64,000 bases of DNA from a virus, in IMG/VR virus record IMGVR_UViG_3300036945_000620, positions 1-64,000 of that record. One strand, given 5' to 3'. Numbering within the stretch: the first letter of the stretch is position 1; each line of letters opens with the position of its first letter. Below, piece after piece: positions 3,501-61,429 of this stretch. The notes under the pieces are model-generated. The model saw only the letters and a program-made list of their open reading frames with translations. It was not told the DNA's origin and made no database searches. The translations under genes were made by a program, and so were the position numbers.

Positions 3501-3881
3501 TTAACCATAAATCCATTCTTTCGGTCGTCGCTCCGCGAACGGGGTCATCGAATGCACGATGGCCGTGTTGCTGGCGCGCGGTTCGATCATGACACAATGA
3601 CCGCCGCGAATTGTCAGCCCGCCGCCCTTCTCATAGTTGCGCGAGACTTCCAGATAATCCTCGAACGATGGCCCGAAACGGAATCGGATCGTCGCGTGTT
3701 CGAGAATGGGCCGCGCAGGATCGTCGCCATAGCCGACGATTGTGTTCCGCGTCAATTCATCCGCGACGCCAAGCTGCTCGTCCAGACGGTCGCGCAGGCT
3801 CTTTTCGTTGCGCTCCATCGACTCGATGTGCGTCTGCCACTTCTTAGGCAAACGCTCGAACCCGTCCGGCCTGATCATCAT
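3501..3881 (-). CDS. Unknown phage protein, about 126 aa
   Basis: N-terminal helix with heptad-like charge (LPKKWQTHIESMERNEKSLR) then a beta-rich part with IRFRFGPSFEDYLEVSRNY, a layout common in uncharacterised phage proteins. Start placed at the ATG that overlaps the stop of the gene at 3878-4282 (ATGA); a TTG four codons earlier is possible. Co-transcribed with the gene at 3878-4282. Function unknown. Confidence 0.75.
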   Translation of the reverse strand: MMIRPDGFERLPKKWQTHIESMERNEKSLRDRLDEQLGVADELTRNTIVGYGDDPARPILEHATIRFRFGPSFEDYLEVSRNYEKGGGLTIRGGHCVMIEPRASNTAIVHSMTPFAERRPKEWIYG

Positions 3882-4282
3882 GATCTGATCCAATACGTGA
3901 CGCCGTCAAAATCGACCGACGTATAATCTTGCTGCAACTCTTCCGCCGCCTGTTTCCAGTCGATGCACGTCTGCGGCCATGACGCATTGCTGTCAATCGC
4001 GCCGATGTCATCGGCGAATTCACGCGCCCAGCGTTCGAAGTGAGAGTCGCGTATCAGCGCCTCGCCATGATGCCAGTCGGCGCAACCTTCGGCTTCTTCC
4101 GCCAGCGCCAGAAGCGCCGTCAGCTCTTCCTGCTCTTCCGTCATATCGACGCCGTTAACCATGAAACCTTCTTCGGTTTCTTCGCCGCCGTCCAGCTCTT
4201 CCTGTAGCTGCTCGATCTTTTCGATCACGTCGCGGCTGTCGATGATGTCGTCGCCGTTCGAGATGTTGATTCTGCGGGCCAT
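3878..4282 (-). CDS. Acidic protein of a widespread phage/plasmid family, 134 aa
   Basis: Very acidic (EELDGGEETEEGF, EEQEELTALLALAEEAEG). It ends in SVDFDGVTYWIRS, preceded by LIRDSHFERWAREFADDIGA and a WPQTCIDW segment. I recall this C-terminal pattern from many phage and plasmid hypothetical proteins; no biochemical role is known to me. The charge would suit a DNA-mimic or anti-restriction role, but that is only a guess. ATG at 4282 is preceded by GGAGAGTTTCAGA. A sigma-54-like site lies 33 bases upstream. Overlaps the downstream gene by 4 bases. Confidence 0.8.
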   Translation of the reverse strand: MARRINISNGDDIIDSRDVIEKIEQLQEELDGGEETEEGFMVNGVDMTEEQEELTALLALAEEAEGCADWHHGEALIRDSHFERWAREFADDIGAIDSNASWPQTCIDWKQAAEELQQDYTSVDFDGVTYWIRS

Positions 4283-6174: not shown

Positions 6175-6582
6175 CTAGTCCCTTTCGATCTTCTTCACTT
6201 CCACGGTGAACCCGGCGATCATCAGCTCGCGCCGGACGTTCTGCGCCGTCGATTCGTCATCCGTCTGGACAATGCACTGTGACACAAGTTTGCCGTCGCG
6301 CAATCCCTCGACCATGTCCTTTGCATCTTTCAGGCCGTAGTTCGCGCCCCAGTGGCGGATTGCCTTGATGCCGTCGATCAGCCGCGCGCCGTCGTGGTTC
6401 GTGATGATGACGCGATACAGCACAGCCGCGCCATACACTTCATTGGCAAGCTCTTCGGCCCATTTCTGTAGACCGTTCTGGATCATGACCGCCAGCAGAG
6501 GGTCCGCCTCGCCGATGGCCGGTTGCAGCATCTTGCGCTCGCGGATCATGCGGCGGATGAAGTCGTCGCGTGTCAAAAGCAT
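6175..6582 (-). CDS. Protein with ribosomal L7/L12 C-terminal-like domain, 135 aa
   Basis: The last 65 residues align by eye with the C-terminal domain of ribosomal stalk protein L7/L12: IKAIRHWGANYGLKDAKDMV corresponds to the conserved vIKavReaTGLGLKEAKdlV helix pair, and the end AGFTVEVKK to aGAeVEVK. That domain recruits translation GTPases. The N-terminal 70 residues (helical) are unrelated to L7/L12. Known: small L7/L12-like domains occur in various non-ribosomal bacterial and phage proteins. Inference: it may contact host elongation factors or the stalk. ATG at 6582; a TTG overlapping the previous stop is an alternative. Confidence 0.8.
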   Translation of the reverse strand: MLLTRDDFIRRMIRERKMLQPAIGEADPLLAVMIQNGLQKWAEELANEVYGAAVLYRVIITNHDGARLIDGIKAIRHWGANYGLKDAKDMVEGLRDGKLVSQCIVQTDDESTAQNVRRELMIAGFTVEVKKIERD

Positions 6583-7583: not shown

Positions 7584-7817
7584 CTAATCAGGACGATGCA
7601 ACATGCGTGCCACGCTCTTGTACTCACGATAGGCGTCGCGCGTTAAGTCTTGATAAACCATAACCGCCTCCGCATACATCCGCGTCCATTCGTCGGGCGT
7701 GATCGCCTTGGCGCTCCGCATCTTTTCGAGCCTATACATCTCGTCTTCCAGCAGCTCGCTTGCCGGGCTCGCGACCTCGCAATACTTGGCCCAAGCCGCC
7801 GCTTCCCAGACGCTCAT
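7584..7817 (-). CDS. Unknown small helical protein, 77 aa
   Basis: Almost entirely helical, with a Glu/Leu-rich middle (ASELLEDEMYRLEKMRSAKA) and repeated Tyr. ATG overlaps the stop of the gene at 7814. Its 3' end covers the sigma-54-like site at 7597-7612. Confidence 0.72.
   Translation of the reverse strand: MSVWEAAAWAKYCEVASPASELLEDEMYRLEKMRSAKAITPDEWTRMYAEAVMVYQDLTRDAYREYKSVARMLHRPD
7597..7612 (-). promoter_or_regulatory. Sigma-54-like promoter, perfect consensus
   Basis: TGGCACGCATGTTGCA on the minus strand matches TGGCACG-N4-TTGCW exactly, 33 bases before the ATG at 7563. Confidence 0.7.
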
Positions 7818-8011
7818 GTCAGCAGCGTGATCGTGAAGTCGAATCCCTGATCTGGAATCTTGACCACGCGCCCGGCTTCAAGGTCGGGCAACACGCGGGT
7901 GATCTCCCCACGGGTGAACCCGTACGCCGTCAGGGCGGCGCGAACGGTGCGGCCCGCCGCGACGCGCGGCTTGGCTTCCGATGACGGTGTGCTGATTTGA
8001 ACGCGTACCAT
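7814..8011 (-). CDS. Unknown small protein, 65 aa
   Basis: AAGRTVRAALTAYGFTRGEI followed by TRVLPDLEAG has helix-turn-helix-like spacing, so DNA binding is possible but unproven. ATG overlaps the stop of the gene at 8011-8262 (TAATG). Confidence 0.72.
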   Translation of the reverse strand: MVRVQISTPSSEAKPRVAAGRTVRAALTAYGFTRGEITRVLPDLEAGRVVKIPDQGFDFTITLLT

Positions 8012-9066: not shown

Positions 9067-10016
9067 CACGATCCGGGCCACGGGGACAAGAGGGTAGGGG
9101 GCCGTCACCCTCACAACTGGGGGCGGTCACCCCGTCTTAACGAGTTGGGCGGCGTTTAGGTTAATTGGCGTGGAGCACTAACTTACCGTATCCCCCCTAA
9201 TCGCTCCGTGGCGGCGGGGCTCCCGATTAGGGTTACTGTCCCCGTATAAGTTAGGGTATCCATCCCCTAATTAGCATATTAGGGTTTATAATAGGGTGCC
9301 AATCCCCTAATCACGATAATGTGATATCCTAATATTTTCTCAGCACTTTAAGATGAGGAGAAGGTTAATAGGTAGTGATTGTCAAAAAAGCCCATAAATA
9401 AAGGATAAAAAGCCCCTTTTTCAACCTCGCATTGGCCGTGGTAGGGTGGAAGGTTAATGGCGCGTCGGCTGTTAAGCTTAAGGCCGAGGGGGACTTGCTC
9501 TAATTAGGCTTAACGTCGTATAACTTAAAATTAACCCTAACAGCCCGTATAACCTCATTTATAATAGCTATAATTAACCTTAACGGGCTATAAATTAAGG
9601 TTAATTTAGCCTATTAGGGTTAATTTTCGACGAGGCCACGGGGGACTTCAAGGCTGTTAAGGTTAACAGCTCTTGTTTTTCATGGTAACCTTAACACATA
9701 TTCGGCGATTAGCACAAAATTAACCTTAACAGGCTATTAAGGTTAATGGCGTTAAGGTTAATGCAGGCCGAGGGGGACTTCAAGGCCACAGGGGACTTCA
9801 AGGTTAACAGGCCAGAGGGGACTTCAAGGTTAATTAGTAGTAAATCCGAGGCGGCGGCTGTCATTAATGGGCCGTTAACCTTAACGCGTTAACCTTAACA
9901 GGGCGGTAAGGTTAACAGGCTGTTAAGGTTAATGGCGTGTTAAGGTTAATGGGCATTAACTATAAACGGCTGTTAAGGTTAACCGGCGGCGGCGCGTTAA
10001 CCATGGTCACGGCAGG
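9067..10016. repeat. Gene-free AT-rich zone with reiterated TTAAGGTTAA; candidate origin
   Basis: About 950 bases without a plausible gene. The 10-mer TTAAGGTTAA (or its complement TTAACCTTAA) occurs about eleven times exactly between 9575 and 9982, with many one-base variants back to 9155. Several form convergent pairs. A second motif, GRGGGGACTTCAAGG and close forms, occurs about five times (near 9485, 9637, 9770, 9787, 9813) interleaved with the first. Dense short iterons in an AT-rich gap beside a transcription boundary are typical of phage origins; a multi-site regulator platform is the alternative. Confidence 0.65.
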
Positions 10017-10148
10017 TTAGACATCCCCCTTGTCGTGGGGGATGTCGAAGATGACCGGGGAGTAATTCCGCCAGACCATGCCGAGGTGATGCGGGCAGCG
10101 GATCAGGCAGATAAAGAGGGCGTAGGACTTCCAAAGGATGCGGTGCAT
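10017..10148 (-). CDS. Small protein, 43 aa
   Basis: Begins MHRILWKSYALFICLIRCPH, a hydrophobic Cys-containing stretch, and ends FDIPHDKGDV. The ATG is preceded by ACGGAGATCGACC, the same leader type as the cassette genes up to 13.7 kb. Promoter candidate upstream: TTGCAT near 10202-10207. The 3' end overlaps a perfect 9-bp hairpin (ACATCCCCC/GGGGGATGT, about 10021-10045). Unknown role. Confidence 0.6.
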   Translation of the reverse strand: MHRILWKSYALFICLIRCPHHLGMVWRNYSPVIFDIPHDKGDV

Positions 10149-10222
10149 GGTCGATCTCCGTTTCTGATGACGCATGTATGCCATAGACCCGGACGTTATG
10201 CAATAGCTATTTTGCATTATTC

Positions 10223-10264
10223 CAAAAAAAATTGCTCGCCCCGCGCATCATGGCGGGGCGAGCA
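10223..10264 (-). terminator. Strong rho-independent terminator
   Basis: On the minus strand a 12-bp stem TGCTCGCCCCGC/GCGGGGCGAGCA is followed by a run of eight T. It ends the three-gene unit 11031-10292. Confidence 0.85.
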
Positions 10265-10291: not shown

Positions 10292-10555
10292 CTACAGGCT
10301 AGTAAGAAGCGCCACAATCCAGAATATCAGGCCCATGGGCGCGCATACGTACAGCCATGCCTTGCGCGCTGCTAGGCCTATCAGCCACCCTAGATCAGCG
10401 ATCCAGCGGGGCAGGGCATGGTCTGGCGTCCAGCCGGTCCGCTCGCATTCGAAAGGCTTGGAAGGCGCTTGCGCGCCTTCCGTGTATACCCCTTCGACAA
10501 TTGGCCGCTGGCGTGTTCCAAAGGCGCTCAAGTCAATCCCTCCACCCATTGCCAC
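10292..10555 (-). CDS. Small protein with C-terminal membrane helix, 87 aa
   Basis: Polar N-terminus (PSKPFECERTGWTPDHALPR) then two hydrophobic stretches, IADLGWLIGLAARKAWLYVC and APMGLIFWIVALLTSL, the last forming a tail anchor. Overlaps the upstream gene by 28 bases; a TTG eight codons downstream, behind GGAGGG, is an alternative start. Last gene before the terminator at 10223-10264. Confidence 0.65.
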   Translation of the reverse strand: MAMGGGIDLSAFGTRQRPIVEGVYTEGAQAPSKPFECERTGWTPDHALPRWIADLGWLIGLAARKAWLYVCAPMGLIFWIVALLTSL

Positions 10556-10761
10556 AGGTCAGGCTTGTTCATGCAAGATCGCTGCCCGCGATCGTGGCGC
10601 ACGTGGACGGAAGCGCCGACGGGATAGGCGCGAAGCACGTCCGCCGCTGCTTTGGCGTCGCTGCCGGTATACATGGCCGCGACAGGCTCGATGGACATCG
10701 CCACGACTCCCCGGCTATCCGGGGAGGTGCAGCGGATTTGGTTCGCTGATACCGTGATCAT
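10528..10761 (-). CDS. Unknown small protein, 77 aa
   Basis: Contains SIEPVAAMYTGSDAKAAADV and VGASVHVRHDRGQRSC, mixed alpha/beta. ATG three bases after the stop of the gene at 10765, so co-translated with it. Not recognised. Confidence 0.7.
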   Translation of the reverse strand: MITVSANQIRCTSPDSRGVVAMSIEPVAAMYTGSDAKAAADVLRAYPVGASVHVRHDRGQRSCMNKPDLWQWVEGLT

Positions 10762-10764
10762 GGT

Positions 10765-11031
10765 CTAGGCCTCCTTCAGAAAGTAATACATTGCCAGAGT
10801 GCAGCCGAGTCGCGGCGCTTCCGGGCAGATAAGCGCAACCTGATGGGCGTGAGCAAAATAGTGCTCTTCCTCTTCGTCCATATGCGCGGGCGCTCCGGCG
10901 TCGATGCGAGCGATGAAGGCATCCGCTGCGGCGATATCTGCGTCAGACAGGCCTTCCGGGTCATCGTTGAAGAAATAGCAGGCCCAATGCGCGGGGGCGG
11001 TGGCGTCGATATTGATCAGGTCGCGGCTCAT
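10765..11031 (-). CDS. Acidic small phage protein, 88 aa
   Basis: AHWACYFFNDDPEGLSDADI then DAFIARIDAGAPAHMDEEEE and a C-terminal LGCTLAMYYFLKEA. The 'N-D-D-x-x-G-L-S-D-x-D' pattern recalls a small uncharacterised phage family. ATG at 11031 is preceded by CGGAGACAGAATC; a longer frame would run through the 15-bp leader hairpin (11056-11118). Heads the unit ending at 10264. Confidence 0.75.
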   Translation of the reverse strand: MSRDLINIDATAPAHWACYFFNDDPEGLSDADIAAADAFIARIDAGAPAHMDEEEEHYFAHAHQVALICPEAPRLGCTLAMYYFLKEA

Positions 11032-11055
11032 GATTCTGTCTCCGTTTTTTTTTGG

Positions 11056-11118
11056 TCGAGAGAGGGAAACCGCCGGGGCTTCGGGGGGTAGGAAGCTTGT
11101 CCCGTTTCCCTCTCTCGA
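11056..11118 (-). promoter_or_regulatory. Long 5' leader hairpin before the gene at 10765-11031
   Basis: Perfect 15-bp arms TCGAGAGAGGGAAAC (11056-11070) and GTTTCCCTCTCTCGA (11104-11118) enclose a C/G-rich loop. It is followed by an A-run and the ribosome-binding site, so the structure sits in the untranslated leader. Could protect the message or regulate translation; no known riboswitch class recognised. Confidence 0.6.
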
Positions 11119-11168
11119 TACGCAAGACATAGCACGACTGGCGGAGTATGCAATAGCTATTTTGCATT

Positions 11169-11184
11169 ATTACAAATTTGTAAT
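11169..11184. promoter_or_regulatory. Palindromic operator ATTACAAATTTGTAAT, copy 1
   Basis: Perfect 16-bp palindrome flanked by TGCA on both sides. Lies between a leftward promoter (TTGCAT near 11149) and the rightward TTGACA at 11200. Confidence 0.75.
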
Positions 11185-11199
11185 GTTGCATTTTTCTTC

Positions 11200-11228
11200 T
11201 TGACAGGCTCGGATTTTTGTGATATAAT
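11200..11228 (+). promoter_or_regulatory. Consensus sigma-70 promoter P1
   Basis: TTGACA, 17-base spacer, TATAAT: both hexamers perfect. Reads rightward into a short gene-free unit that ends at the hairpin 11310-11338. Confidence 0.85.
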
Positions 11229-11299
11229 GGATTGACGACCTATTTTTGCCCGTTAACGAGTTGTTAACCTTAATAGGCTGTTAAGGTTAACGCCGCGCC

Positions 11300-11338
11300 A
11301 CGAAAAATTAACCATGCCAGTGCGAAACTGGCATGGTT
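11300..11338 (-). terminator. Hairpin terminator, possibly two-way
   Basis: AACCATGCCAG/CTGGCATGGTT (11310-11320, 11328-11338). For leftward transcription it is followed by AATTTTT and comes right after the stop at 11346. For rightward transcription the tail is CTTGCATT, weaker. Confidence 0.75.
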
Positions 11339-11344
11339 CTTGCA
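11329..11344 (+). promoter_or_regulatory. Sigma-54-like sequence at cassette end, copy 1
   Basis: TGGCATGGTTCTTGCA fits the -24/-12 consensus. It is formed by the right arm of the terminator hairpin plus TTGCA, and points toward the antisense of minus-strand genes. The same arrangement occurs at 12006 and 12990, so it may be a by-product of cassette duplication. Confidence 0.35.
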
Positions 11345-11345
11345 T

Positions 11346-11468
11346 TCATAGCAGTCGGCGTTTTCGCTTGTCCTTAACCCAGCCTCGCATGGGTTGCGGC
11401 GCTTTTACAGCTTTCATTAACCCTGCCAATGGGTTGCGCTTTCGTCGGCGTTTTACGAACAATTTCAC
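11346..11468 (-). CDS. Very basic small peptide, about 40 aa
   Basis: GTG-started frame with roughly 40% Lys/Arg: KLFVKRRRKRNPLAGLMKAV at the start and KDKRKRRLL at the end. A shorter ATG form of 23 residues is possible. Support comes from position: the stop lies against the terminator hairpin exactly as for the genes ending at 12022 and 13005. No clear ribosome-binding site. Could bind nucleic acid. Confidence 0.45.
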   Translation of the reverse strand: MKLFVKRRRKRNPLAGLMKAVKAPQPMRGWVKDKRKRRLL

Positions 11469-11476
11469 GGAAGTTT

Positions 11477-11496
11477 GGGGAGGCTTTCGCCTCCCC
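11477..11496 (-). terminator. Hairpin after the gene at 11504-11770
   Basis: Stem GGGGAGGC/GCCTCCCC with a 4-base loop, followed leftward by AAACTT. Weak T tract; may only attenuate reading into the basic peptide gene. Confidence 0.55.
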
Positions 11497-11503
11497 TCAC
11501 TCA

Positions 11504-11770
11504 CTAGGCCGTGATCGAATTCCCTTCGTGCTTGCCTGCCGCGATCTCTGCGGCGGTCTGGTCCGCCAGCGCCTTCAGGGCGTCCGCAGCGCCGACATAG
11601 TCGCGCGCCTTGAACTTCTTCCCAGTGAGCGCCGCAGCCGTGTCCATCATGGCTTTCGGGGTGTATGCACGGTTGACCTTCATCCCGGTTTTTGCGTAGA
11701 GGCGCAGCGCCGAGGCGATGGCGACACACTGGTAAACCGAGACTGCGGTAGAGCCTGAAAACATGGTCAT
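11504..11770 (-). CDS. Unknown small protein of a phage family, 88 aa
   Basis: Helical, with VYQCVAIASALRLYAKTGMK then VNRAYTPKAMMDTAAALTGK and a basic/Ala-rich C-terminus. I recall similar N-termini in other phage hypotheticals; no function known. ATG preceded by ACGGAGAACGACCA, the cassette leader. Promoter upstream: TTGCAT (11824-11829) and TATCTC (11802-11807), 16-base spacer. Confidence 0.78.
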   Translation of the reverse strand: MTMFSGSTAVSVYQCVAIASALRLYAKTGMKVNRAYTPKAMMDTAAALTGKKFKARDYVGAADALKALADQTAAEIAAGKHEGNSITA

Positions 11771-11844
11771 TGGTCGTTCTCCGTTCGTTGTTGATGCACT
11801 AGAGATAGCACATCCATCGGCATATGCAATAACTATTTTGCATT

Positions 11845-11860
11845 ATTACAAATTTGTAAT
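11845..11860. promoter_or_regulatory. Palindromic operator, copy 2
   Basis: ATTACAAATTTGTAAT between the leftward TTGCAT (11824-11829) and the rightward TTGACC (11876). Confidence 0.75.
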
Positions 11861-11875
11861 GTTGCATTTTTCCTA

Positions 11876-11904
11876 TTGACCCGGTCCGGCTTTTATGGTA
11901 TGAT
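11876..11904 (+). promoter_or_regulatory. Sigma-70 promoter P2
   Basis: TTGACC, 17-base spacer, TATGAT. Same placement relative to the operator as P1. Confidence 0.8.
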
Positions 11905-11910
11905 GGAATG

Positions 11911-12020
11911 ACGACCTATTTTTTCGCGTTAACGACTTATTAACCTTAATGGCGTGTTAAGGTTAACGCCGCGAGGCTAAAAATTAACCGTGCCTCCCTT
12001 TCGGGTGGCACGGTTCTTGC
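11911..12020 (+). ncRNA. Candidate small RNA 2
   Basis: Same architecture as the unit at 11235: GACGACCTATTTTTT, convergent TTAACCTTAA/TTAAGGTTAA pair, then the hairpin AACCGTGCC.../...GGCACGGTT ending near 12015. Confidence 0.55.
11975..12015 (-). terminator. Hairpin terminator after the gene at 12022-12261
   Basis: AACCGTGCC and GGCACGGTT arms around a GAAA-type loop, followed leftward by AATTTTT. It comes immediately after the stop at 12022. Confidence 0.72.
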
Positions 12021-12021
12021 A
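12006..12021 (+). promoter_or_regulatory. Sigma-54-like sequence at cassette end, copy 2
   Basis: TGGCACGGTTCTTGCA, exact consensus match on the plus strand, overlapping the terminator arm. Confidence 0.35.
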
Positions 12022-12261
12022 TTACCCCTGCGGGTTCGGCTTGTACTCGCCGACCGGACCACTGTAGAGCAGTTGGAGCACTCCCGCGCCATTGTGGCGC
12101 GTCAGGTACACGCTGCACATATCGACGCCGTTTGCCTCATACAGCCGCACCTCGACAGCGCCTTGCCATGACGCGGCGCGCGTCGTGAGGCCCGAGGATT
12201 TATGGCCGAGGCGGGAAGCTTCCGTGCGTCCGCCCTGAACCGTTCCGCGAAAGTGAGCCAT
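12022..12261 (-). CDS. Unknown protein of a common phage family, 79 aa
   Basis: Starts MAHFRGTVQGGRTEASRLGH, a pattern I recall from many phage hypothetical proteins, followed by beta strands (AVEVRLYEANGVDMCSVYLT). Function unknown. ATG preceded by CGGAGAATAGAAA. Promoter upstream on the minus strand: TTGACT (12333-12338), 17-base spacer, GATACC (12310-12315), with the 34-bp palindrome just behind it. Confidence 0.82.
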   Translation of the reverse strand: MAHFRGTVQGGRTEASRLGHKSSGLTTRAASWQGAVEVRLYEANGVDMCSVYLTRHNGAGVLQLLYSGPVGEYKPNPQG

Positions 12262-12309
12262 TTTCTATTCTCCGTTTTCCGGGGGCGTTCATCGCCTCCC
12301 ATGCGTGTA

Positions 12310-12338
12310 GGTATCGCATATCCGGCCAATGCAGTCAA
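12310..12338 (-). promoter_or_regulatory. Sigma-70-like promoter of the gene at 12022-12261
   Basis: Minus-strand TTGACT, 17-base spacer, GATACC, adjacent to the long palindrome at 12345-12378. Confidence 0.55.
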
Positions 12339-12344
12339 CAGAAT

Positions 12345-12378
12345 AATGCACACATTACAAATTTGTAATGTGTGCATT
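12345..12378. promoter_or_regulatory. Palindromic operator, copy 3, extended to 34 bp
   Basis: A perfect 34-bp palindrome centred on ATTACAAATTTGTAAT (12354-12369). It sits just after the stop of the gene ending at 12389 and just before the promoter of the next, so it could act both as operator and as a terminator hairpin. Confidence 0.75.
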
Positions 12379-12388
12379 TTCCGCTTGA

Positions 12389-12649
12389 CTAATAGTCGGC
12401 GATCTTGTCCGCCTCGCGTTCGAGAAAAATCATCTGCACAGGCGTCAAGCGGTGGTCGCCTTGGCCGCTTCCGTTGTCGTCCAGAATGCCCATCATAAGC
12501 GCCACGGTGAGGCTAGACGAGTGTTTCCCGTTCGGGTCGGAGAAGCATACGAACCAGCGATTCCCGTCCTCCGGACCCATGTCCGTGCATTCGAAAATCA
12601 CGAGCGAGTGACCCTTCGCGATCACTTTGTCATTGCGTCCCAGTTTCAT
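12389..12649 (-). CDS. Unknown small protein, 86 aa
   Basis: Beta-rich N-terminal half (GRNDKVIAKGHSLVIFECTD, RWFVCFSDPNGKHSSSLTVA), helical end LTPVQMIFLEREADKIADY. ATG follows the stop of the 32-codon gene by one base, indicating coupled translation. Not recognised. Confidence 0.75.
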   Translation of the reverse strand: MKLGRNDKVIAKGHSLVIFECTDMGPEDGNRWFVCFSDPNGKHSSSLTVALMMGILDDNGSGQGDHRLTPVQMIFLEREADKIADY

Positions 12650-12650
12650 A

Positions 12651-12749
12651 TTAACGGCTCCATTTTTTGTGGAAGCGAACCGCGCAAATGCGGTTGCTGA
12701 GTTCTTCCGAAGGGAAGAAGAAAAAGACGATTTTCAGAACCGTTTCCAT
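12651..12749 (-). CDS. Small peptide, 32 aa
   Basis: METVLKIVFFFFPSEELSNR then ICAVRFHKKWSR. Hydrophobic Phe-rich start and basic end. ATG preceded by ACGGAGCGACCAA, the cassette leader, which is good support for so short a gene. Promoter: TTGCAT (12798-12803), 17-base spacer, GATAAA (12775-12780). First gene of a two-gene unit with 12389-12649. Confidence 0.65.
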   Translation of the reverse strand: METVLKIVFFFFPSEELSNRICAVRFHKKWSR

Positions 12750-12774
12750 TTGGTCGCTCCGTTGTTGATGACCC

Positions 12775-12803
12775 TTTATCGCATAGGTTGGCCGCATATG
12801 CAA
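12775..12803 (-). promoter_or_regulatory. Leftward promoter of the 12749-12389 unit
   Basis: TTGCAT, 17-base spacer, GATAAA on the minus strand. The -35 and its flank (ATGCAATA) recur before the other cassette genes. Confidence 0.55.
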
Positions 12804-12818
12804 TAGGATAATTGCATT

Positions 12819-12834
12819 ATTACAAATTTGTAAT
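12819..12834. promoter_or_regulatory. Palindromic operator, copy 4
   Basis: ATTACAAATTTGTAAT flanked by TGCA, between the leftward TTGCAT at 12798 and the rightward TTGACC at 12850. Confidence 0.75.
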
Positions 12835-12849
12835 GTTGCATTTTTCCTC

Positions 12850-12878
12850 TTGACCCAACCGGATTTATCTGGTAAAAT
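12850..12878 (+). promoter_or_regulatory. Sigma-70 promoter P4
   Basis: TTGACC, 17-base spacer, TAAAAT; same arrangement as P1 and P2. Confidence 0.8.
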
Positions 12879-12884
12879 GGATTG

Positions 12885-13004
12885 ACGACCTATTTTTCCG
12901 CGTTAATGAGTTGTTAACCTTAACAGAATGTGGCGCGCTGTTAAGGTTAACAAATCGAGGCGAAAAATTAACCATGCCAACCGCGGGGCTGGCATGGTTC
13001 TTGC
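12885..13004 (+). ncRNA. Candidate small RNA 3
   Basis: Begins with GACGACCTATTTTT as in units 1 and 2, has TTAACCTTAACAGA and its convergent partner CTGTTAAGGTTAAC, and ends at the hairpin AACCATGCCA/TGGCATGGTT. Confidence 0.55.
12962..12999 (-). terminator. Hairpin terminator after the gene at 13005-13319
   Basis: AACCATGCCA/TGGCATGGTT stem followed leftward by AATTTTT, immediately after the stop codon at 13005. Confidence 0.72.
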
Positions 13005-13005
13005 T
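12990..13005 (+). promoter_or_regulatory. Sigma-54-like sequence at cassette end, copy 3
   Basis: TGGCATGGTTCTTGCT, consensus with W = T, again made from the hairpin arm. Confidence 0.35.
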
Positions 13006-13319
13006 TAGGCGTCCACGGGCTCGGGATCGTCCGGCGATTCGAAGAATTCGCCAAGCTCAACAAATAGGACCGTGCAGCCCTGATCATATCTGATCATGTC
13101 GCCATAGTCCGAACGGCTTGAACGCTCGCCAGTGAGTCCAGCTTCGCGCCTAGCAGCCTTGGCGACACGCGCGCGACGCTTGCGCCATGCTTCGGGCGAA
13201 TACTGATCGCCATCGCTCCGGCGATGTTCGCAGCGGATAATGCCGCGACGAACCCAGCAATAATTCGCCTCGCCTCCAAAGGTGTCAGTGAATTCCCAGC
13301 GGTAAAGATGTTCGGCCAT
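13005..13319 (-). CDS. Unknown protein, 104 aa
   Basis: Trp/Tyr-rich start (AEHLYRWEFTDTFGGEANYC) with C...C spacing, a basic middle (EAWRKRRARVAKAARREAGL) and an acidic end. ATG at 13319 preceded by GAGGATTGACA; an upstream TTG is less likely. Third gene of the unit 13668-13005. Confidence 0.75.
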   Translation of the reverse strand: MAEHLYRWEFTDTFGGEANYCWVRRGIIRCEHRRSDGDQYSPEAWRKRRARVAKAARREAGLTGERSSRSDYGDMIRYDQGCTVLFVELGEFFESPDDPEPVDA

Positions 13320-13321
13320 TG

Positions 13322-13486
13322 TCAATCCTCAAAAAGCAATTCTGCGAATTCGTCGCGCGGCTGTTTGGACGCTTTCTCTTCGTCGCGAATCTCTTGACAG
13401 TATTTCTCGACGATTTTCAACTGACGAAGAATCTCGTCCATCGTCGGCTTTCGGCCATGAAGATAAAGGCTGTTTTCGGGGGCCAT
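13322..13486 (-). CDS. Small acidic protein, 54 aa
   Basis: MAPENSLYLHGRKPTMDEIL followed by a helix RQLKIVEKYCQEIRDEEKAS and an acidic end. Below the usual length cut-off, but its ATG overlaps the stop of the upstream gene (TAATG) and its TGA is followed by the next start after two bases, which strongly supports it. Confidence 0.75.
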   Translation of the reverse strand: MAPENSLYLHGRKPTMDEILRQLKIVEKYCQEIRDEEKASKQPRDEFAELLFED

Positions 13487-13668
13487 TAGAAGGTCACCAC
13501 GACGGTCAGGACAGCGACGGCGACGAAGAGCGCCACGGCGATGAAAGCGAAGTGATCGCGCTTCACGACGGCTTTAGGAGCCGTTTCGAGCGTGATGGGC
13601 GTGCGGCGCTCAACTCCGGCCCATTCGGCGCGGATTTGTTCGTCTGTCTGGCGGTAGTTGATTTGCAT
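13486..13668 (-). CDS. Small tail-anchored membrane protein, 60 aa
   Basis: Polar N-terminus (QINYRQTDEQIRAEWAGVER) and a C-terminal membrane helix FAFIAVALFVAVAVLTVVVTF. ATG preceded by ACGGAGCACGCAA. The 42 bases upstream of its leader are identical to those upstream of the gene at 11504-11770, a direct sign of promoter duplication. Heads a three-gene unit. Confidence 0.75.
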   Translation of the reverse strand: MQINYRQTDEQIRAEWAGVERRTPITLETAPKAVVKRDHFAFIAVALFVAVAVLTVVVTF

Positions 13669-13754
13669 TTGCGTGCTCCGTTGTTGATGCACTAGAGATA
13701 GCACATCCATCGGCATATGCAATAGCCTTTTTTGCATTTTTCTGCGTTTCGAAC

Positions 13755-13770
13755 ATTACAAATTTGTAAT
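13755..13770. promoter_or_regulatory. Palindromic operator, copy 5
   Basis: ATTACAAATTTGTAAT, flanked as ACATTACAAATTTGTAATGT. Lies between the leftward unit starting at 13668 and the rightward gene at 13848, whose -10 is probably TAGAAT at 13801-13806. Confidence 0.75.
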
Positions 13771-13847
13771 GTAGAAAAGTGCATTATGCGCTTGCGTTTC
13801 TAGAATAGGTGTGGCATTGTCTTTTTAACAGCAACGGAGAACTGCAA

Positions 13848-14090
13848 ATGACCTCGCTCTGGACCAAATATAACGACGCCACTCAGCCCGGCCCTTCGGC
13901 CACTAAGGAAGCGATTGCCGAGGTTGCCGCGGCGCTGAACTACGCGGGCAAGGAACCGCCGCTCTATGTCATGAAGCGCGCCCAACGCCTCGCCCAGATG
14001 AAGGGCCAGTCGATCCGGGAGTCAAATTTCCGCTACTGGTTCGATCAAGCGGTTAACAACTTAGCGGCCCAATTCGGGGTCGCTAAGTAA
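13848..14090 (+). CDS. Unknown small protein, 80 aa
   Basis: MTSLWTKYNDATQPGPSATK, then helical EAIAEVAAALNYAGKEPPLY and VMKRAQRLAQMKGQSIRESN. ATG preceded by ACGGAGAACTGCAA, the cassette leader in plus orientation. Replaces the small-RNA unit found in the other cassettes. Ends at a clear terminator. Not recognised. Confidence 0.78.
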   Translation: MTSLWTKYNDATQPGPSATKEAIAEVAAALNYAGKEPPLYVMKRAQRLAQMKGQSIRESNFRYWFDQAVNNLAAQFGVAK

Positions 14091-14182: not shown

Positions 14183-14860
14183 GAGGGCACATGGTATGGT
14201 TAATTTATTGTGCTGTTTTGTTAACCATACTTTCTTGGTTAATGCTGCATTAAAGTTAACAACAGGGGTGTATTTATTAACCATACTTTCTTGGTTAATT
14301 TTTTAGGGTTATTCATTAACCATACCAGAATTTACAGATTTTTAACCTTAACAGAATGTGTCTTTCTGTTAAGGTTAACCCACTGCTAAGCCCCCTCTAT
14401 TTAAGCCCCCTATGTAGAGCATGGTTAATGCAAATTAACCTTACTATGTGCTACTGTATGCTAATCTCTTATTAACCTTAACAACATATGTATGCTACTA
14501 TGTATTAAGGTTAACATATGTATAATATTATTAATAATTAATAATAATTTAATTTTTTATTAATTTTATTGATTATTAACCTTAACAAGCTGTTAACCTT
14601 ATCGGTTAGGGTTTTGTTAACCCTAACGGGGGTATGCCCCAATCTGGGTCAATTAACCTTACTACGCCACTCATTATACGCATGTGCCAGACCCACCTTT
14701 TCGACCGGGGGTACTTATAATTAAGCCCCGCCTCTTATAACCTTGATTTCATAAAAAATTTTCAGAATTTAGCCCTTACAGGGGGTGAAAGGCTTCTAGC
14801 CTCCGCAGGGGGTAAGGCCCATCGCCCGATAACAGCCCTTATCGGCCCATCAGCCTATAG
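14183..14860. repeat. Second gene-free AT-rich repeat zone
   Basis: No gene seen. Contains TTAACCATACTTTCTTGGTT (plus AAT) as an exact 23-bp direct repeat at 14221-14243 and 14277-14299. Each is a hairpin, the second followed by TTTTTT. A 14-bp hairpin TTAACCTTAACAGA/TCTGTTAAGGTTAA lies near 14344-14381, and further TTAACCTTAAC copies near 14471, 14576 and 14593. It separates the minus cassettes from the plus-strand block. Confidence 0.7.
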
Positions 14861-15073: not shown

Positions 15074-15150
15074 GGGCGGGTAGCTCAGTTGGGAAGAGCG
15101 CGCGATCGATAATCGCGAGGTCGCGGGTTCGATTCCCGCCCCGCCTACCA
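15074..15150 (+). tRNA. tRNA-Ile (anticodon GAT), CCA encoded
   Basis: Full cloverleaf of 77 bases: acceptor GGGCGGG/CCCGCCT, D-stem GCTC/GAGC, anticodon stem CGCGA/TCGCG with loop TCGATAA, five-base variable loop, T-arm GCGGG-TTCGATT-CCCGC, then A-CCA. By canonical numbering the anticodon is GAT (Ile). Position 33 is C rather than the near-universal U, and bases 32 and 38 can pair, which would shrink the loop. Phage tRNAs commonly supplement host decoding; this oddity makes its activity uncertain. Confidence 0.88.
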
Positions 15151-15590: not shown

Positions 15591-16139
15591 ATGGTCAAGG
15601 TCGTACACGTCAAGAAGTCGCGCGGCCCCGTTCCGCAACTCGATCTCCCCGCCGGAAGCTCCTACTACCACTGGAGCCTGATGTCTGGCGGGCGCGGCGT
15701 AAAGCGTTTCAGCAAGACGCCGCCGCGGCGATCGCAGCTCACCAATTCCGAATTCAAGGCGGCGCTCTACGATATCGAGGACGCGCTGGAAGCCTTGTCG
15801 GACGCGGATGATCTGGACGGCATCATTGAAGACATCCGTCAGCTCGGCTCCGAACAGGAAGAGAAGCACCAGAACCTCCCGGACAATCTCCAATACTCCG
15901 GCACGGGCGAGCTTCTTGAAGGCCGCGCTCAAGCCTGCGAAGAGTGGGCGAGCGAGCTGGAGCAAGTCGAGAAGCCCGAAGAAGTCTCGGACAGCGATGT
16001 CGATGACTACATCTCGGACAACTACGAGGAAGACGAGGTCCAGCACGCGAACCGTGAAGAGATCATCGGCCTCTTGGAAGGTGAACGCTTCGACGAGTTC
16101 AAGGAAGCTGTCTCCAACTGCCAGTACGGCGGCGAGTGA
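15591..16139 (+). CDS. Acidic protein, 182 aa
   Basis: Basic first 55 residues, then strongly acidic and helical (ALYDIEDALEALSDADDLDG, EEVSDSDVDDYISDNYEEDE), ending ...NCQYGGE. No family recognised. Starts two bases after the previous stop. Acid-rich coiled segments suggest a protein-binding or DNA-mimic role, unproven. Confidence 0.75.
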   Translation: MVKVVHVKKSRGPVPQLDLPAGSSYYHWSLMSGGRGVKRFSKTPPRRSQLTNSEFKAALYDIEDALEALSDADDLDGIIEDIRQLGSEQEEKHQNLPDNLQYSGTGELLEGRAQACEEWASELEQVEKPEEVSDSDVDDYISDNYEEDEVQHANREEIIGLLEGERFDEFKEAVSNCQYGGE

Positions 16140-16318: not shown

Positions 16319-16710
16319 TGGCAGCATACCACTACATGACGGAGGCACAGCGGCGCGAGATGTTGGCCGCTCGTGTCAAAGCAGCACGCGAGGCGATCGA
16401 GAACGGCATGAAGTTGTACGACTTCGCTGCCGAACTCGGCGTCGCGCCCGGCGGGCTCCAGCGCTATTTCGAGCGCAACGGGCACAAGGCCATAGTGGAA
16501 GGGTTCAAGCACAACCCGAAGCACAACACGATCAAGGGCGAGGAAGCCGTCCGGCGGCTAACGATCATCATTGAGGAACAGGCCAAGGGGGATAAGTTCT
16601 TTTCTCGCTCCGCGAAACGCCTCGGCATGTCGCGTCAAGGGGTCAATGGTTGGCTCCGTCGCATCGCGCCCGATGGCGCGCACAACGCTCTTATGGATTT
16701 TGCAGAATGA
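16318..16710 (+). CDS. Putative regulator with two helix-turn-helix-like segments, 130 aa
   Basis: Residues about 36-57 (LYDFAAELGVAPGGLQRYFE) and about 98-118 (FFSRSAKRLGMSRQGVNGWL) both have helix-turn-helix spacing, the second close to the Xre/Cro pattern. Likely a DNA-binding protein and a candidate regulator of one of the operator families in the window. ATG overlaps the previous stop (TGATG). Confidence 0.7.
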   Translation: MAAYHYMTEAQRREMLAARVKAAREAIENGMKLYDFAAELGVAPGGLQRYFERNGHKAIVEGFKHNPKHNTIKGEEAVRRLTIIIEEQAKGDKFFSRSAKRLGMSRQGVNGWLRRIAPDGAHNALMDFAE

Positions 16711-58888: not shown

Positions 58889-61149
58889 TTGCGATACCGA
58901 TGCAGGATGTCAGCTTCAGATTTCAGCGGGAAGCCCGCGGCCCAAGGTGGCAATTGTTCCATGATCTTCTCGAACTCTTTCGCGTCGCCCTTGCTTCGCA
59001 GAACTTCGGCGATCAGCTCGTCATGGACGGTCAGGATCGGATGATATTTGCCGGTGCGATGACACTCGACCATGGCGTACGCCATCAGGTCGCGACAGAT
59101 GCCTTGCACGATGTTCTCGACCAGCGCGCCGCCGTACGTGTGGGTCTTGCCCCACTGCTTAGTCAGGCCGTCAACGGCGTAGTATCGAATCGTCGGCTTG
59201 AAGACCGGGTCGCCGTTCCTGTCCTTGAACTTGGTTTCTTCCATCTTCAGGTATGCGAACGGGTACGACAGCATCCGGGCCGAAGGCAGACGGCAGAACA
59301 GGAAGTTGCCGACCTTCTTCCAGTGCAGTTTCTTGTTGCAGCACGGAACCCACTGACCGGGCTTCTGAAGCGCAGCGATCGCGGCGTTCTCGACTTCACG
59401 CCACGTCTTCTTCACCTCGTCATACTTGCCGCGATAGCGATCGACGATGTACTTCGCCATGATCAGCGGGGGCAAAGTCTCTTCGCTGATGAAGTAGCCG
59501 GGCGCGTAGATCGCCGCCTGTTTGGGATCACGGAACAGCTCTTCCAGTTCCGCCCAGTCAGCCTCCGGCACGAGGGCTCGCGCCATCTCTTCGGTGAAGA
59601 AGATTTTGTACTTCGCACACGTCTCAAGGAACTTCACCGCGCCCATGCCGTAGCCAAGACCGAGGATCGCCTGCTTGCCTAGCTGGCGTTCTTTCTCGTC
59701 GGCCTTCGTGAGATGGCGGCGATAAATCTCCATGGCGATGTCGAGATAGATGTCCTTGCCGCTCGCGAAGATGTCGAGGGCGATCTGGCAGTCCGCCAGC
59801 CACATGACGCCGCGCGCTTCGACAGCCGCGTAGTCGCCGACGGCCAGCTCGTATCCCATACGCGGAATGATCAGGCCGCGGATAACATCCGACAGAAAGT
59901 TGATCGGCATGTCGGACAAGCGCATCAGCTCATCCACGGACATCAGTTTGATGTCGGCGGCGAGCTTGTCCATGTCCAGCTTGCCCTTGGCGGTACGATA
60001 GTTCTCGTGCGGCTTGCCGGGACGTTTGAGGTTGTGGAGCTGTAGACCCTTGCCGGACCAGCGCCCGGTTTGGGCTCCCCAGTACATGAGGTTCGAGCGG
60101 GCGAGATGATCCTCAAGACAACGGGCGACGGCCTTCTTGTACTTGGACGTGGTCGTGCGGTTGATATCCCGCACCAGCTCGACCACGCGACGCACGTGTG
60201 AGCTGATCTCCGGGTCTTCAAGCACCTTGTCCAGCGTCTCGCCTTGAAGGTCGTCCAGCTCTTTGTAAGCCAGATCGAGATGCTGTTTTATGCGATCCCG
60301 CGCGCCGCCGGTGACCGTCGGGTCTTGCATCAGCTCGCGCAATTCAGTGTTCATCACGTGCTTGGCGTCTTCAGCAAGACGCATAGCCGCTTCGGCAAGT
60401 TCCATGTCGATCTTGACGCCGCGTTCGTTCATCTCTTGATCGACGAACCAGATTTCCCATTCGAAGGGTATCAGGTCGGGCAGCTCTTTCGAGACATCGT
60501 ATTCCGCCCGCACGTCCTGCTTGTTATATTCGGCGCAACGCAGGAACGTGGCCGTGTCACCGGGCCATCGGCGGGGATTGTCCTTGGTGGGATCACGGGG
60601 CTTGTAGAGCGACTTCAGCGCGTTGCTGCCCTCGCCCACGTCTTTCTGATGTTTGACGCTCAGAACCTTCGCCAATCGCTCCAGATCGCGCGGTAGTGCG
60701 TATGCCGCGCCTTTAGCTGCGGAGCATCGCCACTGACGGATAGGTATCTGGGGCCAGCCCCATTTGCGTACGCAGATGCACGTCCACACAGCACGCTCGA
60801 ACTCAGCGTTGTGTGCTTCGAAGATCAGGCCATCAGCGATCGCCTTGACCAGAGACGGCGGACAGACCGGAAGGCCGGTCAGTTCATCCAGATCAGGCTT
60901 GGGCACCTCAATGGCGGGCACGAGAACGCGCGGCTGGCCTTTGCGTTCGCCGACCTTGTACGGCTCCCCCAGCACCGCCGGTTGAGCGACGGTTGGTCCC
61001 CAGAAGATGTCGGGATTTTCGATGGCGTCGCCGATGGCCCACGCCAGCATCATCACCTCCGTAGAGGGATCGCCAGCGTAGCGCCAAGCGCCGACATCGA
61101 TACCGACTTCAGATCGGGTTTCGAAGTCTAGGGTTACGTGCTTAGACAA
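58885..61149 (-). CDS. polA: DNA polymerase I (family A), 754 aa
   Basis: N-terminal 3'-5' exonuclease with DFETRSE (residues 8-14) and AHNAEFE (Exo II-like). Polymerase motif A DYAAVEARGV, motif B KQAILGLGYGMGAVKF, motif C TVHDELIAE. No 5'-3' domain. The main replicase of the phage. Coupled by overlap to the genes on both sides. Confidence 0.95.
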   Translation of the reverse strand: MSKHVTLDFETRSEVGIDVGAWRYAGDPSTEVMMLAWAIGDAIENPDIFWGPTVAQPAVLGEPYKVGERKGQPRVLVPAIEVPKPDLDELTGLPVCPPSLVKAIADGLIFEAHNAEFERAVWTCICVRKWGWPQIPIRQWRCSAAKGAAYALPRDLERLAKVLSVKHQKDVGEGSNALKSLYKPRDPTKDNPRRWPGDTATFLRCAEYNKQDVRAEYDVSKELPDLIPFEWEIWFVDQEMNERGVKIDMELAEAAMRLAEDAKHVMNTELRELMQDPTVTGGARDRIKQHLDLAYKELDDLQGETLDKVLEDPEISSHVRRVVELVRDINRTTTSKYKKAVARCLEDHLARSNLMYWGAQTGRWSGKGLQLHNLKRPGKPHENYRTAKGKLDMDKLAADIKLMSVDELMRLSDMPINFLSDVIRGLIIPRMGYELAVGDYAAVEARGVMWLADCQIALDIFASGKDIYLDIAMEIYRRHLTKADEKERQLGKQAILGLGYGMGAVKFLETCAKYKIFFTEEMARALVPEADWAELEELFRDPKQAAIYAPGYFISEETLPPLIMAKYIVDRYRGKYDEVKKTWREVENAAIAALQKPGQWVPCCNKKLHWKKVGNFLFCRLPSARMLSYPFAYLKMEETKFKDRNGDPVFKPTIRYYAVDGLTKQWGKTHTYGGALVENIVQGICRDLMAYAMVECHRTGKYHPILTVHDELIAEVLRSKGDAKEFEKIMEQLPPWAAGFPLKSEADILHRYRK

Positions 61150-61429
61150 GGCCGTCCAGACCGTCGATCGCCGTCTCGTAGGTTTCGAGAATTGCGTCCG
61201 CTTCTTCCCGCTCTTGGCGGTCCATGCGGCGGCGACGGATCACAGCGCGAAGCGCCTTCGTGTCATAGCCCATCGACTTCGCTTCGGCGTAGATGTCTTT
61301 CTGCGCGCCCTTGTGCTCGTCGATGTCCTCTTGGACGCGTTCGATCCGGGCAACCATATTGCGGAGCGCCTTCTTGGCGTTGTCGCCGAGGTTCGTGGCG
61401 ACCGCATCGACGTTGATTTCGTCTTCCAT
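61142..61429 (-). CDS. GapR-like DNA-binding protein (DUF2312), 95 aa
   Basis: Matches GapR, an alphaproteobacterial nucleoid protein that binds overtwisted DNA ahead of forks and topoisomerases: long helix ALRNMVARIERVQEDIDEHK, then KDIYAEAKSMGYDTKALRAV and IRRRRMDRQEREEADAILET. Phage copies are known. Marks an alphaproteobacterial host and probably assists replication. Confidence 0.88.
   Translation of the reverse strand: MEDEINVDAVATNLGDNAKKALRNMVARIERVQEDIDEHKGAQKDIYAEAKSMGYDTKALRAVIRRRRMDRQEREEADAILETYETAIDGLDGLV

Follow-up and report, generated by a model that had tools for sequence, protein, structure and literature searches.

The 16-bp perfect palindrome ATTACAAATTTGTAAT occurs in five exact copies within the window, i.e., the whole analyzed stretch of 64,000 nucleotides (bases 1 to 64000 of the 78,869-base virus record IMGVR_UViG_3300036945_000620), and the same site recurs next to sigma70 promoters in phages of unrelated lineages. 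We tentatively favor, at just short of even confidence, the reading that a dimeric, probably host-supplied regulator binds the 16-mer, which is located between divergent sigma70 promoters and reused as a module. In the window, the operators are confined to the promoters of one 2.6-kb region (see the table). A scan of the window with up to three mismatches gave no site beyond the five (0.06 expected), none of 100 shuffles had five matches, and the whole record contained no further exact copy. The positions and the uniqueness within the window that the original prediction had asserted were thus both borne out. A literature search for the palindrome string found no paper.

An exact scan of IMG/VR for ATTACAAATTTGTAAT returned about 99 stretches, including 11 contigs with two to six copies, and a one-mismatch search added further copies in viral contigs. 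The reversed palindrome of equal composition, which served as a control, was present in 36 contigs, none with two copies. Many of the singleton matches, which are AT-rich and have no promoter, look like chance, and a scan for the variant GTTACAAATTTGTAA gave mostly single matches. The multicopy contigs comprise a T4-like group (group B; capsid 71% identical to that of Stenotrophomonas phage DLP6), a T5-like group identified by its terminase, and a relative of the window phage, whose own terminase and capsid are approximately 50% identical to those of RcSimone-Hastad/PaMx11-type siphophages. By these markers the lineages are unrelated. The T5-like arrays adjoin the small terminase gene and contain genes for a HAD-type phosphatase and for D5-like helix-turn-helix (HTH) proteins. 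Two other phages with alphaproteobacterial GANTC depletion (G016 and G017) carry one exact copy each, the former together with two near copies. The nearest named phages had no copy within two or three mismatches, save chance-level matches with three mismatches, as would be expected of a site that tracks the host rather than phage descent. A distant blastn search of the region against named phages yielded no match, and a search with a 62-bp element gave AT-rich chance matches only, with a T5-like repeat region among those dismissed.

The geometry of the site with respect to the promoter is conserved within lineages. A sigma70 promoter scoring at least 10 of 12 positions lies next to 48 of 61 operator copies, compared with 1% for shuffled flanks. 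The distance from the operator edge to the −35 box is 10 bp in 18 of 18 T4-like copies, mostly 11 bp on the noncoding side of the T5-like copies (14 bp in one phage), and 15 bp in the window phage. From left to right, a unit of the window consists of leftward genes, a leftward promoter, the operator, and a rightward promoter. The leftward promoters, read from the sequence, pair an extended, poor −10 box with either TTGCAT or TTGACT, and all failed a scan for the canonical consensus. Each operator had been predicted to face a rightward TTGAC(A/C) or equivalent on its other side, and this holds for operators 1, 2, and 4, where the rightward promoters look real; operator 3 is followed by TTGACT without a −10 box, facing the 3′ end of gene 12389-12649, and operator 5 by TTGCGT-17-CATTGT. 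The rightward promoters of units 1, 2, and 4 are among the best of the region (12/12 in unit 1), yet they drive no gene. The T5-like arrays are also divergent, and their stronger promoter (TTGACA-17-TAAAAT) points off the genes, at the terminator of the upstream gene, so that in both groups the stronger promoter of the pair mostly drives no gene.

The rightward leaders of units 1, 2, and 4 contain TTAA-N7-TTAACCTTAA...TTAAGGTTAA from +18 onwards and then run into the hairpin that terminates the next leftward operon. Comparison of six such leaders from two phages showed the TTAA boxes and the operator with GTTGCATTTTT to be invariant (6/6), and the terminator hairpin to be variable. Since stem 1 of the leader is invariant without covariation, it is read as a constraint on DNA binding; hairpin 2 varies, with a few compensatory changes, and is therefore taken to terminate the opposing gene. 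The possibility that this leader is a known RNA was rejected, as no Rfam family matched and only a tRNA was found.

In the mechanism that we propose, a sequence-specific dimer would bind the 16-mer between the divergent promoters of early or accessory phage genes. From an operator centered approximately 43 to 59 bp upstream of the transcription starts, the dimer would work beside RNA polymerase, at the C-terminal domain of its alpha subunit (alpha-CTD), and not on top of the promoter. It would contact polymerase on both sides and probably set which of the two promoters fires, and when, i.e., the balance between a strong noncoding and a weaker coding promoter. The promoters concerned would be used by unmodified host polymerase, and the factor would most likely come from the host or a host-resident element, with unrelated phages having converged on one site. 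We lean toward a host factor because the site is common without a common gene and because the promoters fit unmodified host polymerase: all-against-all phmmer comparisons and a profile of the window HTH revealed no regulator common to the lineages, nor did the palindrome-bearing lineages have in common any protein with a DNA-binding signature. A further step, possible but rather doubtful, is that at least three unrelated lineages (T4-like, T5-like, and PaMx11/RcSimone-type) exploit one bacterial regulator and placed the palindrome independently at a fixed distance from their early and accessory promoters, with the window and T5-like arrays adding a strong divergent noncoding promoter to the switch.

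Several results weigh against the favored reading. The exact site was found once in 2 of 385 alphaproteobacterial genomes and several times in none of them, i.e., without a host regulon, and the 14-bp core occurred in 11 of the 385. The half-site ATTACANNNNTGTAAT gave 22 sites versus 15 for the control in 190 genomes, and one-mismatch sites in 114 gammaproteobacterial genomes amounted to 16 versus 5, again without a regulon; these tests covered exact and near-exact forms, and the surveyed genomes may not include the true host. A host factor would have to have degenerate home sites or stem from an unsampled clade. GANTC depletion points to a CcrM-type host for groups A, D, and E but is weak in groups B and C, so that a common host is not established. 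A rigid class-I activator also agrees poorly with the offsets, since 10/11 and 14/15 bp are approximately half a helical turn apart. In an exact scan of bacterial contigs, there were single matches, mostly without a nearby promoter.

The near absence of copies from host genomes and their clustering within phages would suit a phage-encoded early repressor or switch protein, one per phage, that shuts or redirects the early promoters once it is abundant. A repressor also suits near-consensus promoters better than an activator does, D5-like HTH proteins are encoded inside the T5-like arrays, and 13848-14090, the one plus-strand gene in the window array, is conserved and driven from operator 5. Against this reading stands the lack of a regulator common to the lineages; a fast-evolving phage protein is possible. 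The HTH proteins at 7814 and 16318 had been proposed as first candidates, and neither is supported: protein 7814-8011 has no family match and no match in the close relative G009, and the actual HTH protein at the second position (16360-16710, HTH_3) is missing at the syntenic place in G009, which has five operators and is itself a fragment. Of the phages checked, D16 (record G016) alone encodes a relative of this HTH_3 protein. The 80-aa product of 13848-14090 was likewise rejected as binder; it has no family, no fold match, and one relative in viral contigs. No binding factor was found. We regard a phage-encoded regulator as conceivable though on the doubtful side. GapR (61142-61429), an AT-rich/topology binder, was considered as a candidate and set aside.

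A third reading dispenses with a specific protein and takes the 16-mer as an AAATTT-centered UP-like element for alpha-CTD, or a DNA-structure element, carried by mobile promoter cassettes. The site is indeed AT-rich and lies at −43 to −59 adjoining sigma70 promoters. UP elements are degenerate, however, whereas most copies retain all 16 positions and the symmetry while the spacers vary by lineage (a retention that the exact search itself favors), and exact host copies are near absent. We therefore consider this reading unlikely.

The original prediction had interpreted the region as serial duplication of a regulated module with different cargo, and comparison of the units supports this. Alignment of the intergenic regions revealed paralogous regulatory units with 82% and 65% identity over 202 bp, so that their similarity extends well beyond the promoter motifs. 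Of the two outcomes that the original prediction had named as refuting it, intergenic similarity at chance level outside these motifs is thus contradicted, whereas no binding factor was found. The predicted 42-bp identity between the cassettes at 11504 and 13486 is real and amounts to 46 bp (11786-11831 and 13679-13724), but it lies in the 5′ leader and leftward promoter of the genes ending there and not in genes. G009 also has five operators, and its proximal genes and units align with those of the window at 70 to 86%. In G009, unrelated genes take the place of about four cargo genes (10017, 10528, 12022, and 13005), in agreement with the predicted cargo swaps, and the gene at 12389 is only weakly similar. 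The alignment breaks coincide with unit edges, e.g., at 13006/13322; the borders rest on this one pair of relatives. The operator-2 unit is 80% identical to nonsyntenic G009 units and 70% (gene included) to the syntenic block, which suggests exchange of units among positions. The promoter-operator-terminator unit is reused as a module that was duplicated, probably exchanged between positions, and provided with new cargo at its edges.

Such swap borders, together with the better match to nonsyntenic units, might also be explained if palindrome and promoter merely supplied short homologies for cargo swapping and the palindrome had no regulatory role. Recombination does not need a lineage-fixed distance to the −35 box, and the operator recurs in other lineages without common flanks; this explanation appears very improbable to us.

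The region has the appearance of an array of early or accessory genes in a phage whose replication genes are of the lytic type. Its description as a "moron" region fits insofar as the genes carry their own promoter and terminator and are set between phage genes, as in moron modules, but the label is a loose one. Many copies of one operator per phage genome are also found in mycobacteriophage L5, whose stoperators are asymmetric and scattered genome-wide; the window sites are perfect palindromes within 2.6 kb. As in the divergent-promoter switches of phi29 p4 and lambda OR, a single dimer between unequal promoters could repress one and aid the other, but the window phage has many operators per genome where those have one, and the site sequence is unrelated. 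Promoter-terminator cassettes mediating gene shuffling are already known from the promoter early stem-loop cassettes (PeSLs) of T4-type phages, as described in PMC4503421, where they are attributed to Arbiol 2010 and Comeau 2014. In both systems, an early-type promoter and a stem-loop terminator are repeated between accessory genes, and the gene shuffling linked to PeSLs has its counterpart in the exchange borders at the window cassettes. As far as that description goes, the window units differ in holding a fixed 16-bp palindrome between divergent promoters, and such units occur in a PaMx11/RcSimone-type siphophage (by terminase and capsid) and in T5-like phages besides the T4-like ones.

GANTC is fourfold depleted in the window phage (107 sites versus 425 expected), whereas TTAA-N7-TTAA (13 versus 0.2 expected, all between 9.7 and 14.6 kb of 78.7 kb) and TTAACCAT (20 versus 0.5 expected) are enriched. 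Depletion and CtrA-motif enrichment together mark the host as a CcrM/CtrA-type alphaproteobacterium. CtrA-controlled phages are already known, and host CtrA binding and control of phage promoters have been shown for other phages (PMC9437464). The normalized positional entropy of the sites, calculated from the plain TTAA-N7-TTAA consensus and not from the position-specific scoring matrix of PMC9437464, is approximately 0.50, i.e., under the 0.75 limit of that study, and by this measure the phage falls in the class with focused CtrA sites. Like the LPEG phages described there (Brevundimonas phage vB_BsubS-Delta, etc.), it has a dense TTAA-N7-TTAA cluster in gaps between divergent genes and at promoters, and relatives of its gene 15591-16139 occur in Delta, BabaJaga, and Fanboy; these three phages lack the 16-bp palindrome. 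CtrA-motif enrichment was not seen in the T4-like and T5-like palindrome phages. Host CtrA at the +18 boxes could block the noncoding transcript and thereby couple switching to the cell cycle of the host.

An operator that is letter-for-letter common to unrelated phages without a common regulator gene may represent a so far unnamed control point of infection, and the 16-bp palindrome can be used as bait for its binding protein. It is also a simple marker in environmental phage genomes for early or accessory arrays, which are rich in tiny host takeover candidates. In the window phage, CtrA-type sites and palindrome are combined, so that accessory genes may be under joint control of the host cell cycle and a second signal.

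Table. Coordinates of operators, promoters, CtrA-type boxes, terminators, and genes of the array in the window
Feature	Position	Strand	Remark
Operator 1, ATTACAAATTTGTAAT	11169..11184		
Operator 2	11845..11860		
Operator 3	12354..12369		Core of 34-bp perfect palindrome 12345-12378; G009 has no homologous operator here
Operator 4	12819..12834		
Operator 5	13755..13770		
Sixth, degenerate unit	10197..10226	-	Leftward promoter retained, operator shortened to ATTCCAAA; G009 counterpart at 16635 intact
Leftward promoter 1, TTGCAT-16-TATGTC	11126..11153	-	Read from sequence
Leftward promoter 2, TTGCAT-16-TATCTC	11802..11829	-	Read from sequence
Leftward promoter 3, TTGACT-17-GATACC	12310..12338	-	Read from sequence
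Leftward promoter 4, TTGCAT-17-GATAAA	12775..12803	-	Read from sequence
Leftward promoter 5, TTGCAT-16-TATCTC	13695..13722	-	Sequence and unit alignment
Rightward noncoding promoter 1, TTGACA-17-TATAAT	11200..11228	+	12/12; 15 bp from operator
Rightward noncoding promoter 2, TTGACC-17-TATGAT	11876..11904	+	10/12
Rightward noncoding promoter 4, TTGACC-17-TAAAAT	12850..12878	+	10/12
Rightward coding promoter 5, TTGCGT-17-CATTGT	13792..13820	+	Drives gene 13848-14090
CtrA-type boxes, TTAA-N7-TTAACCTTAA-N7-TTAAGGTTAAC	11253..11291	+	+18 of promoter 1
CtrA-type boxes	11929..11967	+	+18 of promoter 2
CtrA-type box TTAA-N7-TTAACC, then TTAAGGTTAAC after longer spacer	12903..12951	+	+18 of promoter 4
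Intrinsic terminator, operator-1 leftward genes	10233..10264	-	
Intrinsic terminator, operator-2 cassette	11310..11338	-	
Terminator hairpin, operator-3 cassette	11984..12014	-	AATTTTT tail
Intrinsic terminator, operator-5 cassette	12970..12999	-	
43-aa cargo gene of degenerate unit	10017..10148	-	Replaced in G009
77-aa cargo gene	10528..10761	-	Unrelated gene in G009
88-aa gene, DUF6926	10765..11031	-	93% in G009
88-aa gene	11504..11770	-	67% in G009
79-aa cargo gene	12022..12261	-	Unrelated gene in G009
86-aa gene	12389..12649	-	Weakly like G009 counterpart
32-aa gene	12651..12749	-	97% in G009
104-aa cargo gene, phrog_22729	13005..13319	-	Replaced in G009; relative adjoins operator of phage G017
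54-aa gene	13322..13486	-	81% in G009
60-aa gene	13486..13668	-	83% in G009; apparent membrane segment near C terminus (by eye)
80-aa gene driven from operator-5 promoter	13848..14090	+	All-helical model without fold match; about 71-73% in G009

Some additional observations concern the T5-like arrays and the surroundings of the window array. The T5-like contig L258 has tandem operators with a 16-bp period at 12523-12570 (ATTACAAATAATTAAC-type units, then ATTACAAATTTGTAAC), a spacing that suggests cooperative binding of adjacent dimers. In two other T5-like arrays (L013 and L066), the terminator hairpins GGGTGTGACAAATTTGTCACACCC upstream of the operators contain the operator core ACAAATTTGT. 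A GapR homologue (PF10073) is encoded at 61142-61429 (-) of the window, and a related protein at 11807-12067 (+) inside the operator array of L258. On both sides, the window array is bordered by TTAACC/TTAAGG-rich (CtrA-type) gaps at 9120-10010 and 14190-14660, which resemble the gap rich in CtrA sites in Brevundimonas phage Delta. Within the left gap, GGGGACTTCAAGG is repeated at 9480-9830 and conserved at 15930-16130 of G009, possibly as a replication or partition element; a phage-encoded tRNA-Ile (GAT) adjoins the right gap at 15074-15150 (+). The leftward early operon encodes one protein with a weak anti-restriction match (phrog_2059) and one with a ribosomal L7/L12 C-terminal-like domain, at 3878-4282 (-) and 6175-6582 (-). 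The class II ribonucleotide reductase of the phage is closest to those of roseophages. Finally, because the record ends share 127 identical bases (1-127 and 78743-78869), representing a direct terminal repeat or a circular assembly, the record probably covers a complete genome of 78,742 bp.

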